Of a stretch of 59,845 nt of DNA, positions 130 through 59,633 are shown one piece after another. Positions within the stretch are counted from its first letter, which is position 1. Each line of letters starts with the position of its first letter. The stretch spans positions 1-59,845 of the forward strand of contig JAIMAY010000013.1 of NCBI GenBank assembly GCA_023511725.1. Reading direction: 5' to 3'. Below the pieces are notes generated by a model. That model saw only the letters and a program-made list of their open reading frames with translations, made no database searches and was not told the DNA's origin. This DNA is from Alicyclobacillus sp. (lineage in GTDB: Bacteria > Bacillota > Bacilli > Alicyclobacillales > Alicyclobacillaceae). The position numbers were made by a program, and so were the translations under genes.

Positions 130-888
130 TCACGCCGCCGAAAACACCGCCCGCGGCAACACCTCGCCGACCTTCGCGTGGATCACGAGATCGGCCACGT
201 CATCGTAAGGGGTTTCGTCCAGGTTGATGATGGCGAGGCGGGTGCGCTGCCGATCAATCCACCCCGGCAGACTCGCCACCGGCTCGACGGTCAGGGAGCT
301 GCCGATGACCAGCAGCAGGTCGCACTCACGCGCGGCCAGCAGCGCCCGCTCGTAGTGCCGCACCGGTTGGCCAAACAGGACCGTGTCAGGGTACAGGATA
401 TGGTCACAGTCGCCGCCCTTCATCGTGAACGCATGGCAGCGCGGGACATCCTCCCGCAGCACGTGGTCCAGCCCGTAGACCGCGCCGCACACCGGACAGT
501 ACGCGCGCTTAGCCGATCCGTGCACCTCAAACACCCGCCGGCTCCCCGCCTTCTGGTGCAGGCCGTCGACATTCTGCGTATAGATGGACACCGGCTTGCC
601 CAGCTGCTCCAGCGCCGCCAACGCCAGGTGTCCCATGTTCGGCTCCGCCTGCACGTACTCCGGGCGCAGGAACACCGACTTGAACCGCGGCCAGAACGCC
701 TCCGGGTACCGGCGCAGGTACTCATCCGACATGGCTTCCAGCAAGGTGTGGTCCTGCCAGACGCCGTTTTCGGATCGAAAGTCGGGAATGCCCGACTCGG
801 TGCTCATCCCCGCGCCCGTCAGCACCATGATGCGCCCGCTGTTCTGCAGCAGGCGCGCAAGCTCCTCTATCTCCGTCGACCATGTCAT
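130..888 (-). CDS. SIR2-family NAD-dependent protein deacylase (sirtuin)
   Basis: Predicted cytosolic sirtuin of 252 residues that removes acyl groups from lysines using NAD+, giving nicotinamide and O-acyl-ADP-ribose. Visible motifs in order: the NAD-binding GAGMSTESGIPDF near residue 25, TQNVDGLHQKAG, the catalytic His in EVHG, a four-cysteine zinc module (CPVC, then two spaced Cys), and VIGSSLTVEPVA. Length fits bacterial CobB/SrtN proteins. ATG at 888 is preferred because AAGGAG lies 8 bases upstream; an in-frame GTG at 897 overlaps that site. It appears monocistronic and reads away from the tandem repeat array. The acyl-group preference cannot be read from sequence. Confidence 0.93.
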   Translation of the reverse strand: MTWSTEIEELARLLQNSGRIMVLTGAGMSTESGIPDFRSENGVWQDHTLLEAMSDEYLRRYPEAFWPRFKSVFLRPEYVQAEPNMGHLALAALEQLGKPVSIYTQNVDGLHQKAGSRRVFEVHGSAKRAYCPVCGAVYGLDHVLREDVPRCHAFTMKGGDCDHILYPDTVLFGQPVRHYERALLAARECDLLLVIGSSLTVEPVASLPGWIDRQRTRLAIINLDETPYDDVADLVIHAKVGEVLPRAVFSAA

Positions 889-1008
889 CGCTTTCACTCC
901 TTGTCGGGCCCCGTCGCGGTCCTCCCCCGATCCGCCACACCATTGTCGCTCCCTTCAGAATACGCCAACGGGTGCACGAACGGAAGGGGGTGACGCCTCC
1001 ATCCTGTG

Positions 1009-1680
1009 GGTAGCGGGGTTTTCCCGCCTTATGGGGCGTGATCGCGGCACCGGTGAGGCGAATAAGCCGGTTTTCCCGCCCTATGGGGCGTGATCGCGGC
1101 CTCGGTGAGGCGGATAAGCCGGTTTTCCCGCCTTATGCGGCGAGACCGCGGCCTTCGGCGGAGGGAATAAGCCGGTTTTTCCACCTTATGTGGCGTCCAG
1201 ACGGCCCCCACAGCGCGGATAAGCCGGTTTTTCCGCCTTATGCGGCGTCCAGACGGCCCCCACAGCGCGGATACGCCGGTTTTCCCGCCTTATGCGGCGT
1301 CCAGACGACCCCCACAGCGCGAATAAGCCGGTTTTCCCGCCCTATGCGGCGCGATCGCGGCACCGGCGCCGCGGATACGCCGGTTTCTCCGCCTTATGGG
1401 CATGATCGCGGCACCGGCACCGCGGATAAGCCGGTTTTTCCGCCTTATGTGGCGTCCAGACGGCCCCCACAGCGCGAATAAGCCGGTTTTCCCGCCTTAT
1501 GCGGCGTCCAGACGACCCCCACAGCGCGAATAAGCCGGTTTTCCCGCCTTATGCGGCGCGATCGCGGCACCGGCGGAGCAGGCTGACACCTATAACGGGG
1601 TTTTCCCGCCTTATGAGGCGCCCCGGCAGCGCCGGCCGACGCTACAACAGGCCCATCCCCCCTCATGAGGCAGGCGACTC
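1009..1680. repeat. Tandem array of about 12-13 copies of a 52-bp unit with two alternating linker types
   Basis: The core reads roughly (A)ATAAGCCGGTTTTCCCGCC then TTATG. Its T-run starts at 1019, 1071, 1123, 1176, 1228, 1280, 1332, 1384, 1435, 1487, 1539 and 1601, so spacing is 51-53 bp except for a 62-bp last step. A further decayed copy lies near 1654. Each core has an imperfect dyad: ATAAG pairs with CTTAT, then a C.C mismatch, then CGG with CCG around a T-rich loop. Cores are joined by one of two linkers, type A (TCCAGACGGCCCCCACAGC) or type B (GATCGCGGCACCGG). Order from the left: B, B, B-like, A, A, A, B, B, A, A, B. The period is not a multiple of three and no ribosome binding site is visible, so I read it as non-coding. 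Confidence 0.9.
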
Positions 1681-1778: not shown

Positions 1779-2216
1779 TTGATCCGGCTTCGTGGCCACC
1801 ATCTGCTGTGCTTATTGGGATACCGAGGGATGGGATACTCCGAGGCGTACGCGGAAAATATGACGCGCGTTCATGACCAACTGCGGAGGCGACCGGAGAC
1901 GATGGTGATGCTGACGGCCGGGCCGGATGACCTATGCGCGCACTTCCCGCCGGATCAGCCCTATCACTGCCAGGACGCCAACGTGCATGAACGCGACGCC
2001 GCCGTGTTGCGACGTTTGGGTCTACGGGTGGGTGGTGTGGTGGCGTGGGGTGAGATTGAGCGGCGATTGGCCGCGCAATTTGTGCCGGAGGATATCCCCC
2101 GCCTGTGCTGCACGTGCCCATGGCTCGCCTACGGCGTGTGCGAGGACGGGGTTCGGCGCATTCGCGCTGGGGAGGGCCTGTATCCCGTGCTGCCGAAGGA
2201 GACCGATCACGCCTGA
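1779..2216 (+). CDS. DUF1284 family protein with a cysteine cluster
   Basis: Protein of 145 residues. The start MIRLRGHHLLCLLGYRGMGY and the cysteine-rich end (LCCTCPWLAYGVC) match what I know of the DUF1284 family, whose function is not established. Cysteines also occur at LCAHF and HCQD. The spacing suggests a metal or iron-sulfur site, which is an inference. The start is TTG at 1779 with GGCGAGGAG 8 bases upstream. It stands alone, about 100 bp downstream of the 52-bp repeat array, so any promoter must lie within or just after that array. Confidence 0.82.
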   Translation: MIRLRGHHLLCLLGYRGMGYSEAYAENMTRVHDQLRRRPETMVMLTAGPDDLCAHFPPDQPYHCQDANVHERDAAVLRRLGLRVGGVVAWGEIERRLAAQFVPEDIPRLCCTCPWLAYGVCEDGVRRIRAGEGLYPVLPKETDHA

Positions 2217-3727: not shown

Positions 3728-5071
3728 CTACGACTGCGACGGTTTCGCCGCGAACCAGCCGAGGATGATCAGCACCAACACCACCGCGACGCAGACGGTG
3801 CCCCACAACGGGGTCGTCCAGACGACGCCGATGAAGATCAGCGCAAGGACGATGATGGCCACCCACGCGCCGACGCGCAGACCGGGATGACCCGGCACCG
3901 ACTTGAGGTACGCGGCCGCCAGGATAATCCAGACGAGCACCACCGAGTAGCCTGGAATCGTCATCAGATAATTGAAGGTCTGCCCCTTGGCAAAGAAGGC
4001 GATGACGACGCCGACATACAGGAACACCGTGCTTACCAGCAGCGCTCGCACCGGTACGCCGCGCTGCGACAGGTGCGCGAACCAACGCGGCGCCTGACCG
4101 CGCAGCGCCTGGTTGTAGAGCATGCGCGACGCTGCGTACATCCCGCTGTTCGTCGCCGACAGAACGGCCGTCAGCATGACAAAGTTCATGATGTGCGGCA
4201 CGTACGGCACACCGATGGCCTGGAACACGGTGACGAACGGACTCTCCCCGTGGCCGAACTGGTTCCACGGCACGAGGCTGACGATCATCAGGATGGGCAG
4301 GACGTAGAACAGCAAGATGCGGACAATGACGCCCCGCGCCGCGCGCAGGATGGTCCGCTCCGGCTGCTGCGTCTCACCCAGGGTGACACCAATCATCTCC
4401 GTCCCACCGAACGAGAACATCACCACGAGGAACGAGGCCAGAAAGCCGTTCCACCCGTTCGGGAAGAGCCCTCCCTGATCCGTCAGGTGGCGGAAACCGG
4501 GTCCCGGATGTCCGCCGAAGCCGGTGAACAGCAGCACCGCGCCGCAGATGACGAACAGCGCCAGGACGACGATTTTCACGCCTGCCAGCCAGTATTCCGT
4601 CTCGCCGTAGATGCGCACCTGGAAGATGTTGATCAGCGTCATCACGACGGAGACAATGAGCGCCAGCAGCCACAGCGGCACCTGCGGCAGCCAGAACGAC
4701 AGAAAGCCCGCCGCCGTCGCCGTTTCTGCCGCCATCACCAGCACCCAGTCGAGCCAGTACAGCCAGCCGATGACGTGGCCCAGGAAGGGGCCCAGTGCGG
4801 GAGACACAAGGTCCCGAAACGTCCGCGCCCCCGGCTGACGAATGGCCATCTGCGCCAAGCCCTGCATCACAAACAACAGGATGATGCCGCCTATCAAGTA
4901 GGTGAAAATGACGCCCGGACCCGCGGTGCCGATGGAGCTGTCCGAGCCGCGGAACAGCCCTGCGCCGATGGCGCCGCCCAGAGCCATCATGATTACGTGG
5001 CGCGGCCTAAGGCCCCGCTGGAGGTCATCTCCCCGCCCCGACGCGGTGTGTGGGTTGAATGCTTGCTCCAT
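3728..5071 (-). CDS. APC-superfamily amino acid permease
   Basis: Integral membrane permease of 447 residues with about 12 TM segments. The N-terminus RHVIMMALGGAIGAGLFRGS is the TM1 consensus of the AAT family (proton-coupled amino acid uptake), followed by STAGPGVIFTYLIGG-like TM2 residues and MAIRQPGARTF. The Glu-containing segment FGGTEMIGVTLGETQQPERT after mid-protein is also family-typical. Start ATG at 5071 with AGAGGAG upstream. The substrate cannot be assigned; the family includes proline, GABA, lysine and aromatic amino acid carriers. A LysP-like permease of the same superfamily lies at 38488-39978. Confidence 0.9.
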   Translation of the reverse strand: MEQAFNPHTASGRGDDLQRGLRPRHVIMMALGGAIGAGLFRGSDSSIGTAGPGVIFTYLIGGIILLFVMQGLAQMAIRQPGARTFRDLVSPALGPFLGHVIGWLYWLDWVLVMAAETATAAGFLSFWLPQVPLWLLALIVSVVMTLINIFQVRIYGETEYWLAGVKIVVLALFVICGAVLLFTGFGGHPGPGFRHLTDQGGLFPNGWNGFLASFLVVMFSFGGTEMIGVTLGETQQPERTILRAARGVIVRILLFYVLPILMIVSLVPWNQFGHGESPFVTVFQAIGVPYVPHIMNFVMLTAVLSATNSGMYAASRMLYNQALRGQAPRWFAHLSQRGVPVRALLVSTVFLYVGVVIAFFAKGQTFNYLMTIPGYSVVLVWIILAAAYLKSVPGHPGLRVGAWVAIIVLALIFIGVVWTTPLWGTVCVAVVLVLIILGWFAAKPSQS

Positions 5072-6531: not shown

Positions 6532-8360
6532 CACAACCGCAATCCACCTCGACCGCCGGTGCTCGCAGCATCCTGCCCGTCTCGCGCTACATGGAAATCC
6601 GCTCGGCCAACGGGCCCGCCTACAGCGCGGATGGTCACACGCTCTACTTCCTGACCAACATCACCGGCATCCCACAGGTGTGGGCACAGCGCCCCGACAC
6701 ACCCTGGCCGGTGCAGATCAGCTTCTTCGCGGATCGGGTGATGGCTGTCCACCCCAATCCGGTCCGGCCCCTGTTGGCCATCAGCGCGGATGAGGGCGGC
6801 AGCGAAAACGCGCAGCTCTACCTCGCCGACGCGGATGGGTTGAATCCCCGGCCCATCACGGCCGACCCTCGCTTCATCCACAGCTTCAATGTGTGGTCGC
6901 CAGACGGACGCACGCTGGTGTACAGCACCAACCGCCGCGACGGGCGCCACTTCGACATCTGGCAGTATGACGTGGAGACAGACGAGCACAGCCCAATCCT
7001 GGAGAGTGACCACACTCAGGCGGCCGTCGCCGTCTCGCCGGACGGCCGATACTTGATCATCTCCCGCCGCACCTCGAACCTGAACAATGACCTTTATCTG
7101 ATGGATCGGCATGACCACAGCCTGCGCCACCTGACGCCACACGCCGGGGACGTCGTTTACGAATCGCTCCACTTTGCCAAAGATGGCCAGGCGCTGTATC
7201 TCCTGTCCGACCGGGACAGCGAATTCACCCGAGTGGCGCGCTTGGACCTGACGAGCGGCGCATGGACGTGGCTGACGGCGGATGTGTGGGACGCCGAGTC
7301 GCTGGAGCTCTCGCCGGATGGCCGCTATCTCGCGTACGCCGTAAACGAGGACGGCACCTCGCAGTTGTACATCGTGGATCTGACGCAGGACAGCCCGACC
7401 GCGAGGCGCATCGAGGGCGTGCCGGAAGGCGTGATCGCGGAGATCACATGGCATCCAGGCAGCCGTCGCATCGCCTTCACCCTGTCCAGCCCGCTGCACG
7501 CGGTGGAGGTATGGACGGTGGACATCCCGGACGGTGCGGTGCAGCGTGTCACATATGCGAGCGCGTCGGGTGTACCCGCGTCGTTCTTCGTGGCGCCGGA
7601 GCTCGTCCGCTACCGCTCGTTCGACGGCCTGGAGGTGCCGGCGTTTTACTATCGGCCGAACGCGCCCGGGCCGTACGCGGTGGTCGTGTATGTCCACGGC
7701 GGCCCCGAGTCGCAGAGCCGTAACAGCTTCAACAGCGTGATCCAGTACTTCGTACAGCGCGGCTACGCGGTGTTTGTGCCGAATGTGCGCGGTAGCTCGG
7801 GGTACGGCCGTACCTATGTGCACCTGGACGATGTGCGAAAGCGAATGGACTCCGTCGCGGATCTCGCTGCCGGCGTGCGCTGGCTGACGGAGCACGGCGA
7901 TGCGGATCCGAAGCGGATCGGCGTGATGGGAGGCAGTTACGGCGGCTTCATGACATTGGCGGCCGTCACCCACTATCCCGATCTGTGGGCGGCCGGAGTG
8001 GACATCGTCGGCATCGCCAACCTGCGCACCTTCATCGAGAACACGAGCCCCTACCGGCGCCACCTGCGCGAAGCGGAATACGGCACGATTGAGGCGGACG
8101 GGGAATTCTTTGACCAGATCTCGCCGATTCACCACGTGGACAAGATCCAGGCGCCGATGATCATCATCCACGGCGCCAATGACCCCCGCGTGCCCGTCGG
8201 TGAGGCCGAGCAGATGGTGGCGGCGCTGCGCGCTCGCAACCATCCGGTGGAGTACCTGCGCTTCGAGGACGAGGGGCACGGGGTGGTCAAGCTCGCGAAC
8301 CGCATCGTGGCTTACGGCCGCATTGCCGACTTCCTCGACCGTACGCTTGGCATGGGCTGA
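6528..8360 (+). CDS. S9 family prolyl oligopeptidase/acylaminoacyl peptidase
   Basis: Serine peptidase of 610 residues without a signal peptide, so probably cytosolic. The N-terminal 350 residues form a WD40/TolB-like beta-propeller, with repeats such as SPDGRTLVYSTNR, SPDGRYLIISR and SPDGRYLAYAV. The C-terminal alpha/beta hydrolase domain starts near YVHGGPESQS. The catalytic Ser lies in GGSYGGFM, the Asp in HGANDPRVP and the His in DEGHGVV. The family cleaves short peptides or removes acylated N-terminal residues; the propeller excludes folded proteins. It is coupled to the MFS transporter by a 4-base overlap. The start is fixed by that overlap. Confidence 0.93.
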   Translation: MTQPQSTSTAGARSILPVSRYMEIRSANGPAYSADGHTLYFLTNITGIPQVWAQRPDTPWPVQISFFADRVMAVHPNPVRPLLAISADEGGSENAQLYLADADGLNPRPITADPRFIHSFNVWSPDGRTLVYSTNRRDGRHFDIWQYDVETDEHSPILESDHTQAAVAVSPDGRYLIISRRTSNLNNDLYLMDRHDHSLRHLTPHAGDVVYESLHFAKDGQALYLLSDRDSEFTRVARLDLTSGAWTWLTADVWDAESLELSPDGRYLAYAVNEDGTSQLYIVDLTQDSPTARRIEGVPEGVIAEITWHPGSRRIAFTLSSPLHAVEVWTVDIPDGAVQRVTYASASGVPASFFVAPELVRYRSFDGLEVPAFYYRPNAPGPYAVVVYVHGGPESQSRNSFNSVIQYFVQRGYAVFVPNVRGSSGYGRTYVHLDDVRKRMDSVADLAAGVRWLTEHGDADPKRIGVMGGSYGGFMTLAAVTHYPDLWAAGVDIVGIANLRTFIENTSPYRRHLREAEYGTIEADGEFFDQISPIHHVDKIQAPMIIIHGANDPRVPVGEAEQMVAALRARNHPVEYLRFEDEGHGVVKLANRIVAYGRIADFLDRTLGMG

Positions 8361-57968: not shown

Positions 57969-58286
57969 GGGACTGACCTCCTGGTGGATGGATACGGTAT
58001 ACATTAAGGTTGGTACGTGGACCTGGCTTGCCATGACAGGGAGTCCCCGGGCCCTGCCGGCACCAAGCCGATACCGTAGACCTGCGACCGCTGATTTGCG
58101 CGAACCCCCATCGACGCGAAAATCCCGGGAGGTTCGCGAAATGGCGAAAGCCCGCGACAAGTATGGAGTTTCCATGGATGTTATGGTAGAGTATACCCAG
58201 TCACATGAGGCATTCGAAGCCAACTGCCCGCCGGTTCGCGAAATACGACTGAAAATCCGCGCCGGGCGTGGGATGAGAGACGAGGC
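57969..58286 (+). promoter_or_regulatory. Probable CRISPR leader with promoter and repeated motifs
   Basis: 318 bases without a gene. GGTTCGCGAAAT occurs at 58131-58142 and again at 58233-58244. CGCGAACC at 58099-58106 is inverted to the first copy. GAAAATCC recurs twice. TTTCCA (58169-58174), 17 bases, then TATACC (58192-58197) is a plausible promoter about 80 bases before the first repeat. The side matches leader placement, since the repeats end in ATTGAAGC on this strand. Confidence 0.55.
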
Positions 58287-59633
58287 GTTGATCCGCGGGA
58301 TCGTTCCGCGGCCCCATTGAAGCATCTCCTATCAGTGCGGTCTGCCTACCACATAGAGTTGATCCGCGGGATCGTTCCGCGGCCCCATTGAAGCTTCTTC
58401 AATGTTTCTCTTGCTCCTTCCTTATCCTGTGGTTGATCCGCGGGATCGTTCCGCGGCCCCATTGAAGCGCGCTCGTAATCGCACCGTCCTGGATGAGCGC
58501 GGTCGTGTTGATCCGCGGGATCGTTCCGCGGCCCCATTGAAGCCTTGCGGAAGATGTCGGGTAGCGGATTGATGCGGTGTTGATCCGCGGGATCGTTCCG
58601 CGGCCCCATTGAAGCAAGGAACGCGCGCGCCGTTTCAACCGCGCGTCGAGTTGATCCGCGGGATCGTTCCGCGGCCCCATTGAAGCGCAGGCCTGCGGCA
58701 AGATAATGCTCAACGATGGGAGTTGATCCGCGGGATCGTTCCGCGGCCCCATTGAAGCGGCGATGGCGGCGAGACCGTCGATCACGGTGTTGGCAAGTTG
58801 ATCCGCGGGATCGTTCCGCGGCCCCATTGAAGCGTGATAGGCAAGATACCGCCATAGTCCTTGATGGGTTGATCCGCGGGATCGTTCCGCGGCCCCATTG
58901 AAGCCGACCCTGGGCCATATCGTGTTGACGGACTTGCGGCCAGTTGATCCGCGGGATCGTTCCGCGGCCCCATTGAAGCGGAGTTCCGGTTCACGGACCT
59001 TGTGCGCGAGAACCGTTGATCCGCGGGATCGTTCCGCGGCCCCATTGAAGCCCGAACTGGAGGGAGGTGATACAAATGGAGATTCGCTAGTTGATCCGCG
59101 GGAGCGTCCCGCGGCCCCATTGAAGCCACAGACCCAATCGGGCTGCCGCTTCCAAGTCCTCCGTTGATCCGCGGGAGCGTCCCGCGGCCCCATTGAAGCC
59201 GTCAAGCGCATGCACTGCCCAAGGATGCGAGTATCGTTGATCCGCGGGAGCGTCCCGCGGCCCCATTGAAGCCACGCCGCCCCCGACCAGCACCACGAGG
59301 CTTAGCACGTTGATCCGCGGGAGCGTCCCGCGGCCCCATTGAAGCATCGTCGTCGCCGCGCTCGTGGTCGGCATCCTACGTTGATCCGCGGGAGCGTCCC
59401 GCGGCCCCATTGAAGCGGGTTGGTCCGGCCGCTCGGCGTCGCCGTCCCGAAGTTGATCCGCGGGATCGTTCCGCGGCCCCATTGAAGCTCGCTCGCTCGT
59501 TGTTTTTCGCGTTTTTTCGTTCGGTTGATCCGCGGGATCGTTCCGCGGCCCCATTGAAGCAGGTTGGTCGTCACCACTACCGCGCGCCATGCCTCGGTTG
59601 ATCCGCGGGAGCGTCCCGCGGCCCCATTGAAGC
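58287..59633 (+). CRISPR. CRISPR array, 19 repeats of 37 bp in two variants, 18 spacers
   Basis: Repeats start at 58287, 58358, 58432, 58507, 58579, 58650, 58722, 58797, 58868, 58943, 59015, 59090, 59163, 59236, 59309, 59380, 59452, 59524, 59597. Each begins GTTGATCCGCGGGA and ends GCGGCCCCATTGAAGC. Spacers are 34-38 bp and look unique. Variant A has T at positions 15 and 19, variant B has G and C. Order: 11 A, 5 B, 2 A, 1 B. Positions 7-14 pair with 18-25 around a 3-base loop; position 19 is a G.U wobble in A and G-C in B, which keeps pairing only if the plus strand is transcribed. The end ATTGAAGC is typical of class 1 repeats. No cas gene lies in this window, so the subtype is open. Confidence 0.97.

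Follow-up and report, generated by a model that had tools for sequence, protein, structure and literature searches.

In nucleosome-positioning DNA, AT-rich steps recur about once per helical turn. The REP and BIME elements of E. coli and other bacteria are short, imperfect, intergenic palindromes that occur many times per genome and are often clustered at regular distances. REP palindromes have a tag of the GTAG or CGTC type at their foot (PMC3733652), and REP/BIME units alternate in orientation (PMC2817692). Two further systems concern DNA wrapping. The E. coli motif for DNA gyrase is 130 bp long, with a 10.75-bp GC periodicity, two 47-bp arms and a 36-bp centre; the paper on it likens the phased GC content to nucleosome patterns and reports that gyrase sites are over-represented in BIME-2 (PMC6379681). 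Phased GC content and gyrase wrapping are also discussed in a preprint (PMC12393610). Octamer rings of RemA, a protein of Bacillus subtilis, have been proposed to wrap DNA and to protect AT-rich direct repeats of 7 bp separated by 3-bp gaps, that is, one every 10 bp (PMC8481266).

The element described here shares traits with each of these systems. It occurs as an array in the window, by which we mean the whole analysed stretch of 59,845 nucleotides from an Alicyclobacillus sp. genome. Like nucleosome-positioning DNA, it carries AT-rich steps spaced by about one helical turn, but it differs in its specific palindromic sites, and none of 25 genomes has a match to the archaeal-type histone fold (PF00808), on which ground an archaeal-type histone was rejected. 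Among the titles and abstract openings listed in searches of open-licence literature, we found no description of such a repeat.

The 52-bp array and its copies in one genome

Twelve copies of a 23-bp imperfect dyad, with the consensus ATAAGCCGGTTTTYCCGCCTTAT, span positions 1010–1614 of the window, all 12 in a single orientation. The steps between them are 52 bp, apart from one of 53, one of 51 and one of 62 bp. TRF assigned the period of 52 a score of 512 and found a second period of 207 bp with four units. The sites match the consensus at 17–23 of 23 bases; base-shuffled windows gave 2.2 matches of at least 15 per window on one strand. A search of the genome for the 23-bp core pattern with one mismatch returned 143 matches, and its reversed control 0. 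The TRF score, the site scores relative to the shuffles and this last comparison exclude chance for the array, and they bear out the description in an earlier note of about 12 imperfect-dyad cores at a 52-bp period. The array sits between two diverging genes, and the features of the region are as follows.

130..897, minus strand: Sir2 family gene (Pfam), neighbour of the array
1010..1032, plus strand: site 1, degenerate, 17/23 to the consensus
1062..1084, plus strand: site 2
1114..1136, plus strand: site 3
1167..1189, plus strand: site 4
1190..1218, plus strand: example of a class B linker
1219..1241, plus strand: site 5, exact consensus
1271..1293, plus strand: site 6
1323..1345, plus strand: site 7
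1346..1374, plus strand: example of a class A linker; one AT pair lies close to the helical phase of the sites
1375..1397, plus strand: site 8
1426..1448, plus strand: site 9, exact consensus
1478..1500, plus strand: site 10
1530..1552, plus strand: site 11
1592..1614, plus strand: site 12, preceded by the 62-bp step, about six helical turns
1644..1666, plus strand: degenerate 13th unit, 12/23 to the consensus
1779..2216, plus strand: DUF1284 protein gene (Pfam), neighbour of the array

The linkers do not strictly alternate between two unrelated types, as had been claimed in the earlier note. Their order from 1 to 11 is A, A, A′, B, B, B, A, A, B, B, other, so that two main classes are set in blocks, and linkers 3 and 11 are outliers. 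Identity is 93–100% among B linkers, 75–89% among A linkers (1, 2, 7 and 8) and 50–64% between A and B. The sequence GCGATCGC, which we take to be the octamer of cyanobacterial HIP1, is frequent in linkers of the window (1325–1374) and of other arrays in the genome, and two of its three copies in the window lie inside the array.

Repeats of 23 bp with linkers of 28–29 bp resemble the layout of a CRISPR array. However, linkers are reused within the array, the very point on which the earlier note had separated it from CRISPR, and this reuse refutes such an identity. In addition, the unit is present at 28 places in the genome and has relatives in other genomes, and a separate CRISPR-like array with differing spacers lies in the same window. 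We therefore regard a CRISPR array or a chance satellite as practically out of the question. The separate array (58271–59560) has 18 repeat copies ending in ATTGAAGC, in two repeat variants.

A genome-wide search for the unit, which the earlier note had proposed, found 27 places in the 2.66-Mb genome besides the window array (BLAST, two-unit consensus). The total of 28 reflects our own merging of 110 BLAST matches, with one 20-bp match at E 0.91 omitted. Three of these places (C28:8130, C36:8551 and C71:7280) have only a single site or fragment, and the longest arrays have 14 units. A contig end is at most 1 kb away at nine of the 28 places, as is expected since repeats break assembly. The window and 22 further stretches of the genome give 151 consecutive site distances of up to 160 bp, of which 148 are 51–53 bp and one is 62 bp. 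Given 28 places in the genome, a single partition-type site, one of the earlier suggestions, is not supported. The note had also named a finding that would refute its own reading, namely a common scattered repeat whose copy number is random and whose phasing is not conserved; this is half true, since the unit is indeed dispersed and variable in copy number, but its phasing is conserved. In this genome, CCGG is favoured in left halves and GCGG in right halves, which makes the commonest site directional, with a mismatch.

Relatives in other Bacilli and the four-site form

None of the other 58 genomes of the order contains the exact core. When we searched for ATAAG-N13-CTTAT occurring twice with a gap of 24–34 bp, eight of 398 genomes of the class matched, including that of the window, and the reversed control gave 0. 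In the genus g92, 11 of 40 genomes have pairs spaced by 51 bp with at most two mismatches, at 1–16 pairs each; the reversed control gave one match each in six of the 40, and one of the 11 positive genomes also has a single pair. Paenibacillus cymbidii has 56 pairs (control 0), Cohnella nanjingensis also carries arrays, and genome G015 has 134 pairs with at most three mismatches (control 2). In a phylum sample of 299 genomes, which included none of the other known element-bearing genomes, the only match at one mismatch was in the genome of the window. Both this count and the g92 pair count are undercounts, because 51-bp spacing alone was read. The sites of the relatives differ from the window core in their inner sequence, and the distribution of the family across Bacilli is patchy.

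A scan of genome contigs yielded 16 stretches, five from P. cymbidii, two from Cohnella and nine from other organisms. Six of the seven P. cymbidii and Cohnella stretches have arrays, and the seventh has one site at its far end (7947–7969 of 8000). The nine stretches from other organisms have one exact match each and no array. The same is true of four stretches from viral contigs, each with one exact match and no 52-bp array. One of these four, an IMG/VR contig, has, beside its exact palindrome, irregularly spaced repeats of TAAGGCGG (4512–4913). Plasmids gave no match to the P. cymbidii array or the window array as query, and phages none to the window array.

A search with set spacings found 45 four-site elements outside the window genome: 17 in G041, 15 in G015, four each in G399 and G001, three in G163 and one each in G070 and G336. 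Their sites are spaced 51-61/62-51 or 51-72-51 bp, within a base or two, and some elements are tandem copies of one another. The stretches L137 3606–5216 and G015:C1:460597–461344 show a four-site element repeated in tandem with its flanks, 389–416 bp apart, and a continuous array with pairs every 112–113 bp. Among the loci listed for contig C1 of G015, density seems higher within about 1 Mb of coordinate 0.

The elements are intergenic. None of 40 tested four-site elements (of the 45) overlaps a gene according to a simple gene caller, which labels 52–79% of the DNA with four-site elements as coding and which missed the DUF1284 gene beside the window array. Of 37 four-site elements, 24 are flanked by genes in tandem, seven by divergent and six by convergent genes. 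In the window genome, seven places are convergent, five divergent and seven tandem, a count that wrongly puts the window array in the tandem class, and nine are at contig ends. One match, 27 bp long and located at the end of a contig, overlaps an open frame. The neighbouring genes had no common theme when their proteins were judged by eye, with Pfam applied to the genes of the window alone.

Transcribed hairpins, such as tandem terminators or a structural RNA, would be a further way to read palindromes with A/T ends, and by eye the lone palindromes in unrelated genomes are terminator-like. The lack of a convergent bias among flanking genes argues against this idea, as do the scarcity of covariation and the fact that an RNA needs no helical phasing. 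Rfam gave only a sub-threshold mir-138 match in 5 kb of the window, and for the loci of seven relatives it gave unrelated riboswitches and no match to the element at gathering score. We consider transcribed hairpins extremely unlikely.

Helical spacing, base conservation and half-site pairing

Because the four-site search fixed its spacings, we took evidence for quantisation from counts of free distances, and the comb analysis used sites with a score of at least 9 of 10 from four genomes, 1.24 Mb in all. At distances of 24–260 bp, G015 and G041 have peaks at 51, 61–62, 112–113 and 163–164 bp, with smaller counts elsewhere, and G399 has peaks at 51, 72, 123 and 174 bp. There are 186 distances of 30–105 bp, and 179 of them fall at 30–32, 41–42, 49–52, 61–64, 72, 81–83 or 94–95 bp. 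After removal of near-duplicates, 72 distances (24–105 bp) give a resultant of 0.81 at 10.4–10.5 bp. When distances of 49–53 bp are also left out, the resultant for the remaining 41 is 0.749, and the highest value among 20,000 random sets is 0.502. The reversed-half control, with nine distances, lacks the comb.

The comb covers 3 to 9 helical turns, and its unit corresponds to a single turn of the DNA helix. A fit with free phase puts the period at 10.46 bp (95% bootstrap 10.10–10.72), and the regression slope of the distances is 10.47 (10.27–10.65) with a slightly negative intercept. Under the assumption of whole-turn spacing, the fit is best at 10.24 bp (bootstrap 10.20–10.28), or 10.30 bp without the 51-bp class, a figure that depends on that assumption. 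Left-handed wrapping, as suggested by the 10.24-bp fit, was dropped once the free-phase fit gave 10.46 bp; 10.5 bp and smaller values agree equally well with the period, which would be compatible with either sense of wrapping. A subtype in G015, ATAGGGATC...GATCCCTAT, has a spacing of 41–42 bp, about four helical turns.

Part of the regularity comes from copying, in that paired sites are alike in direct orientation (z 5.6 and 3.0 in 35 non-redundant pairs) and the arrays look like tandem expansion.

The helical signal continues between the sites. AT-rich triplets lie at intervals of about 10 bp, also in linkers without other conservation, and in g92 the AT content peaks near positions 1, 11, 21, 32, 41 and 51 from the site start, with two of the peaks in the linker. 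The amplitude of this linker comb exceeds that of all 3000 shuffles in g92, in G041 and in the window genome, and is significant in G015 (p 0.004); in P. cymbidii, with eight pairs, it is not (p 0.07). Among linkers less than 60% alike, the comb persists, with 0 of 3000 shuffles reaching it in g92 and G041 and p 0.007 in G015. In all nine of the arrays tested among the 28 places in the window genome, the 10.4-bp harmonic is the largest, with 23–39% of the AT variance, and the other harmonics hold up to 18%. The AT combs of outer flanks are contaminated by adjacent sites.

The element could instead be a strong DNA gyrase wrapping site, functionally similar to E. coli BIME-2. Its AT comb is similar in kind to the phased GC content of the gyrase motif and could likewise favour wrapping. 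However, the element has discrete palindromic sites, and its AT profile has no visible 36-bp centre. The periods, 10.46 bp and the reported 10.75 bp, are not cleanly separated: 10.75 bp lies just above the free-phase range, yet the resultant there is 0.79 against 0.81 at best, whereas under the whole-turn assumption the mean cosine is −0.095 at 10.75 bp versus 0.80. Overall, a gyrase site seems quite improbable.

An AT-rich repeat every 10 bp, as is characteristic of RemA sites, is found in the element, which also resembles RemA regions in occurring in Bacilli and in the wrapping proposed. It could accordingly be a regulatory wrapping site for a known wrapper of Bacilli such as RemA or LrpC. 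RemA-like genes occur in 20 of 25 genomes, namely 14 of 15 element-bearing genomes, including that of the window, and six of ten others. By contrast with RemA regions, the element has strong 23-bp palindromic sites. Moreover, the element-rich genome G041, which is second to the window genome in the strict pairs of the class search, has no RemA-like match, and neither do four congeners. We judge a site of this kind to be very improbable.

Conservation at orthologous loci was measured in nine aligned g92 groups, with gap columns set aside and the near-identical group D excluded; groups C and E are in neither conservation count. Bases are conserved at 387 of 404 half-site positions, 469 of 527 positions in the inner 13 bp (89%), 726 of 958 in linkers (76%) and 821 of 1101 in flanks (75%). 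Only the inner figure is free of a selection bias, since the loci were picked by half-site match. The inner bases are more conserved than the linkers (Fisher p 2e-10) and linkers do not differ from flanks (p 0.54), with bases treated as independent. An earlier count that scored gaps as mismatches (linkers 59%, flanks 62%) is superseded by this gap-free count. Inner bases exceed linkers in eight of nine groups and flanks in eight of nine. The respective exceptions are group H (inner 40/52, linker 46/56), in part due to a loop inverted between orthologues, and group J (inner 28/33, flank 56/60). Group A keeps an upstream pair of the reference poorly, and its half-sites are conserved at 65 of 80 positions overall.

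The inverted loop belongs to site 2 of group H, in which the orthologues L240 and L241 have A/T loops that are exact reverse complements of each other. Template switching at a hairpin could be the cause.

If hairpins were maintained, the two halves of a site should vary together; mostly, they vary independently, which indicates that hairpin pairing is not what is kept. In the window genome, the types of the two halves agree a little less than in shuffles (2.83 versus 2.93, sd 0.04), and in 135 unique g92 sites the half matches equal the shuffled value (1.948 in both cases, sd 0.073; z 0.00). The 35 non-redundant pairs give within-site z values of 1.7 and 0.2, and 2.6 for inner halves across the linker. 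In 13 elements of G041, the within-site values for the four sites are 0.3, 3.5, 0.3 and 0.7, with 2.3 for site 2 when pooled; several half-site pairs there exceed a z of 3, one of them within a site, in an inconsistent pattern. On the whole, the pairing data agree better with duplicated sites whose halves are read separately than with hairpins under conservation.

These observations also bear on selfish or mobile extragenic palindromes of the REP kind, which spread through single-stranded hairpins and have no host function. The element is an extragenic, imperfect palindrome in the range of 20–40 bp and in many copies, its family is dispersed, intergenic, sporadic and variable in copy number, and loops can invert between orthologues, as hairpins allow. 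Y1 transposases are present in five of ten element-bearing genomes, but matches to the Y1/RAYT family (PF01797) are absent from the window genome, G015, G041, G336 and P. cymbidii. A RAYT-driven REP was rejected for the window genome on its 0 matches. The element further departs from REP/BIME in that its unit consensus, GATAAG...CTTAT, has no GTAG-type foot (only site 1 of the window begins with GTAG), in that the window sites point one way instead of alternating, and in its spacing of mostly whole helical turns. Compensatory pairing is scarce, with the value of 3.5 at site 2 in G041 as an exception, and neither the distance comb nor the conserved inner bases at orthologous loci would be expected of neutral hairpins. 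An origin as REP-like palindromes is thus unlikely.

A proposed helically phased assembly site

Our reading, drawn from sequence comparison, is that a DNA-binding protein probably assembles on the array, whose sites are helically phased. The earlier note had listed a phased protein-binding array among its explanations. The phasing now has comparative support from the distance comb, the conservation of inner bases, the independence of the halves and the AT comb of the linkers, and from these patterns we infer protein binding, reading by dimers, bending or wrapping, and the history of the element. The patchy distribution of the family, the share of copying in the regularity and the scattered pairing signal count against this reading.

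Each 23-bp site consists of two inverted half-sites, each made up of ATARS and about four lineage-specific bases, and the halves would be recognised largely independently of each other, in the manner of a protein dimer. Since the sites are mostly whole helical turns apart, the dimers would share one face of the DNA. The AT-rich steps, about one per turn in both sites and linkers, may let the DNA curve toward that face, and the intergenic DNA would end up bent or wrapped in a nucleoprotein structure. The four-site element of about 190 bp may represent the ancestral form, from which runs of sites would have expanded into arrays in P. cymbidii, Cohnella and the window genome. Taken together, the data point to recognition at the level of DNA and from the same face. 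Given that no theme was apparent by eye in the flanking genes, a structural role, in local topology or chromosome folding, would be the likeliest.

A broader idea is possible, although we hold it tentatively and with considerable doubt: some Bacilli may carry dedicated chromosomal wrapping elements that are analogous to nucleosome-positioning DNA. Such elements would have rows of dimer sites one or more whole turns apart, an AT comb running through the linkers, a putative lineage-specific protein, and four-site modules, lengthened in some genomes into long arrays.

If the phased reading is right, the elements would constitute a family of intergenic repeats in bacteria that follows a design rule open to measurement, in which sites are placed mostly at whole helical turns and a rotational AT signal lies between them. 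They would also point to a new DNA-bending or DNA-wrapping protein in Bacilli, for which the sequence could be used as bait. The elements offer a test of whether selection on DNA geometry, as opposed to RNA or coding capacity, can keep repeat families.
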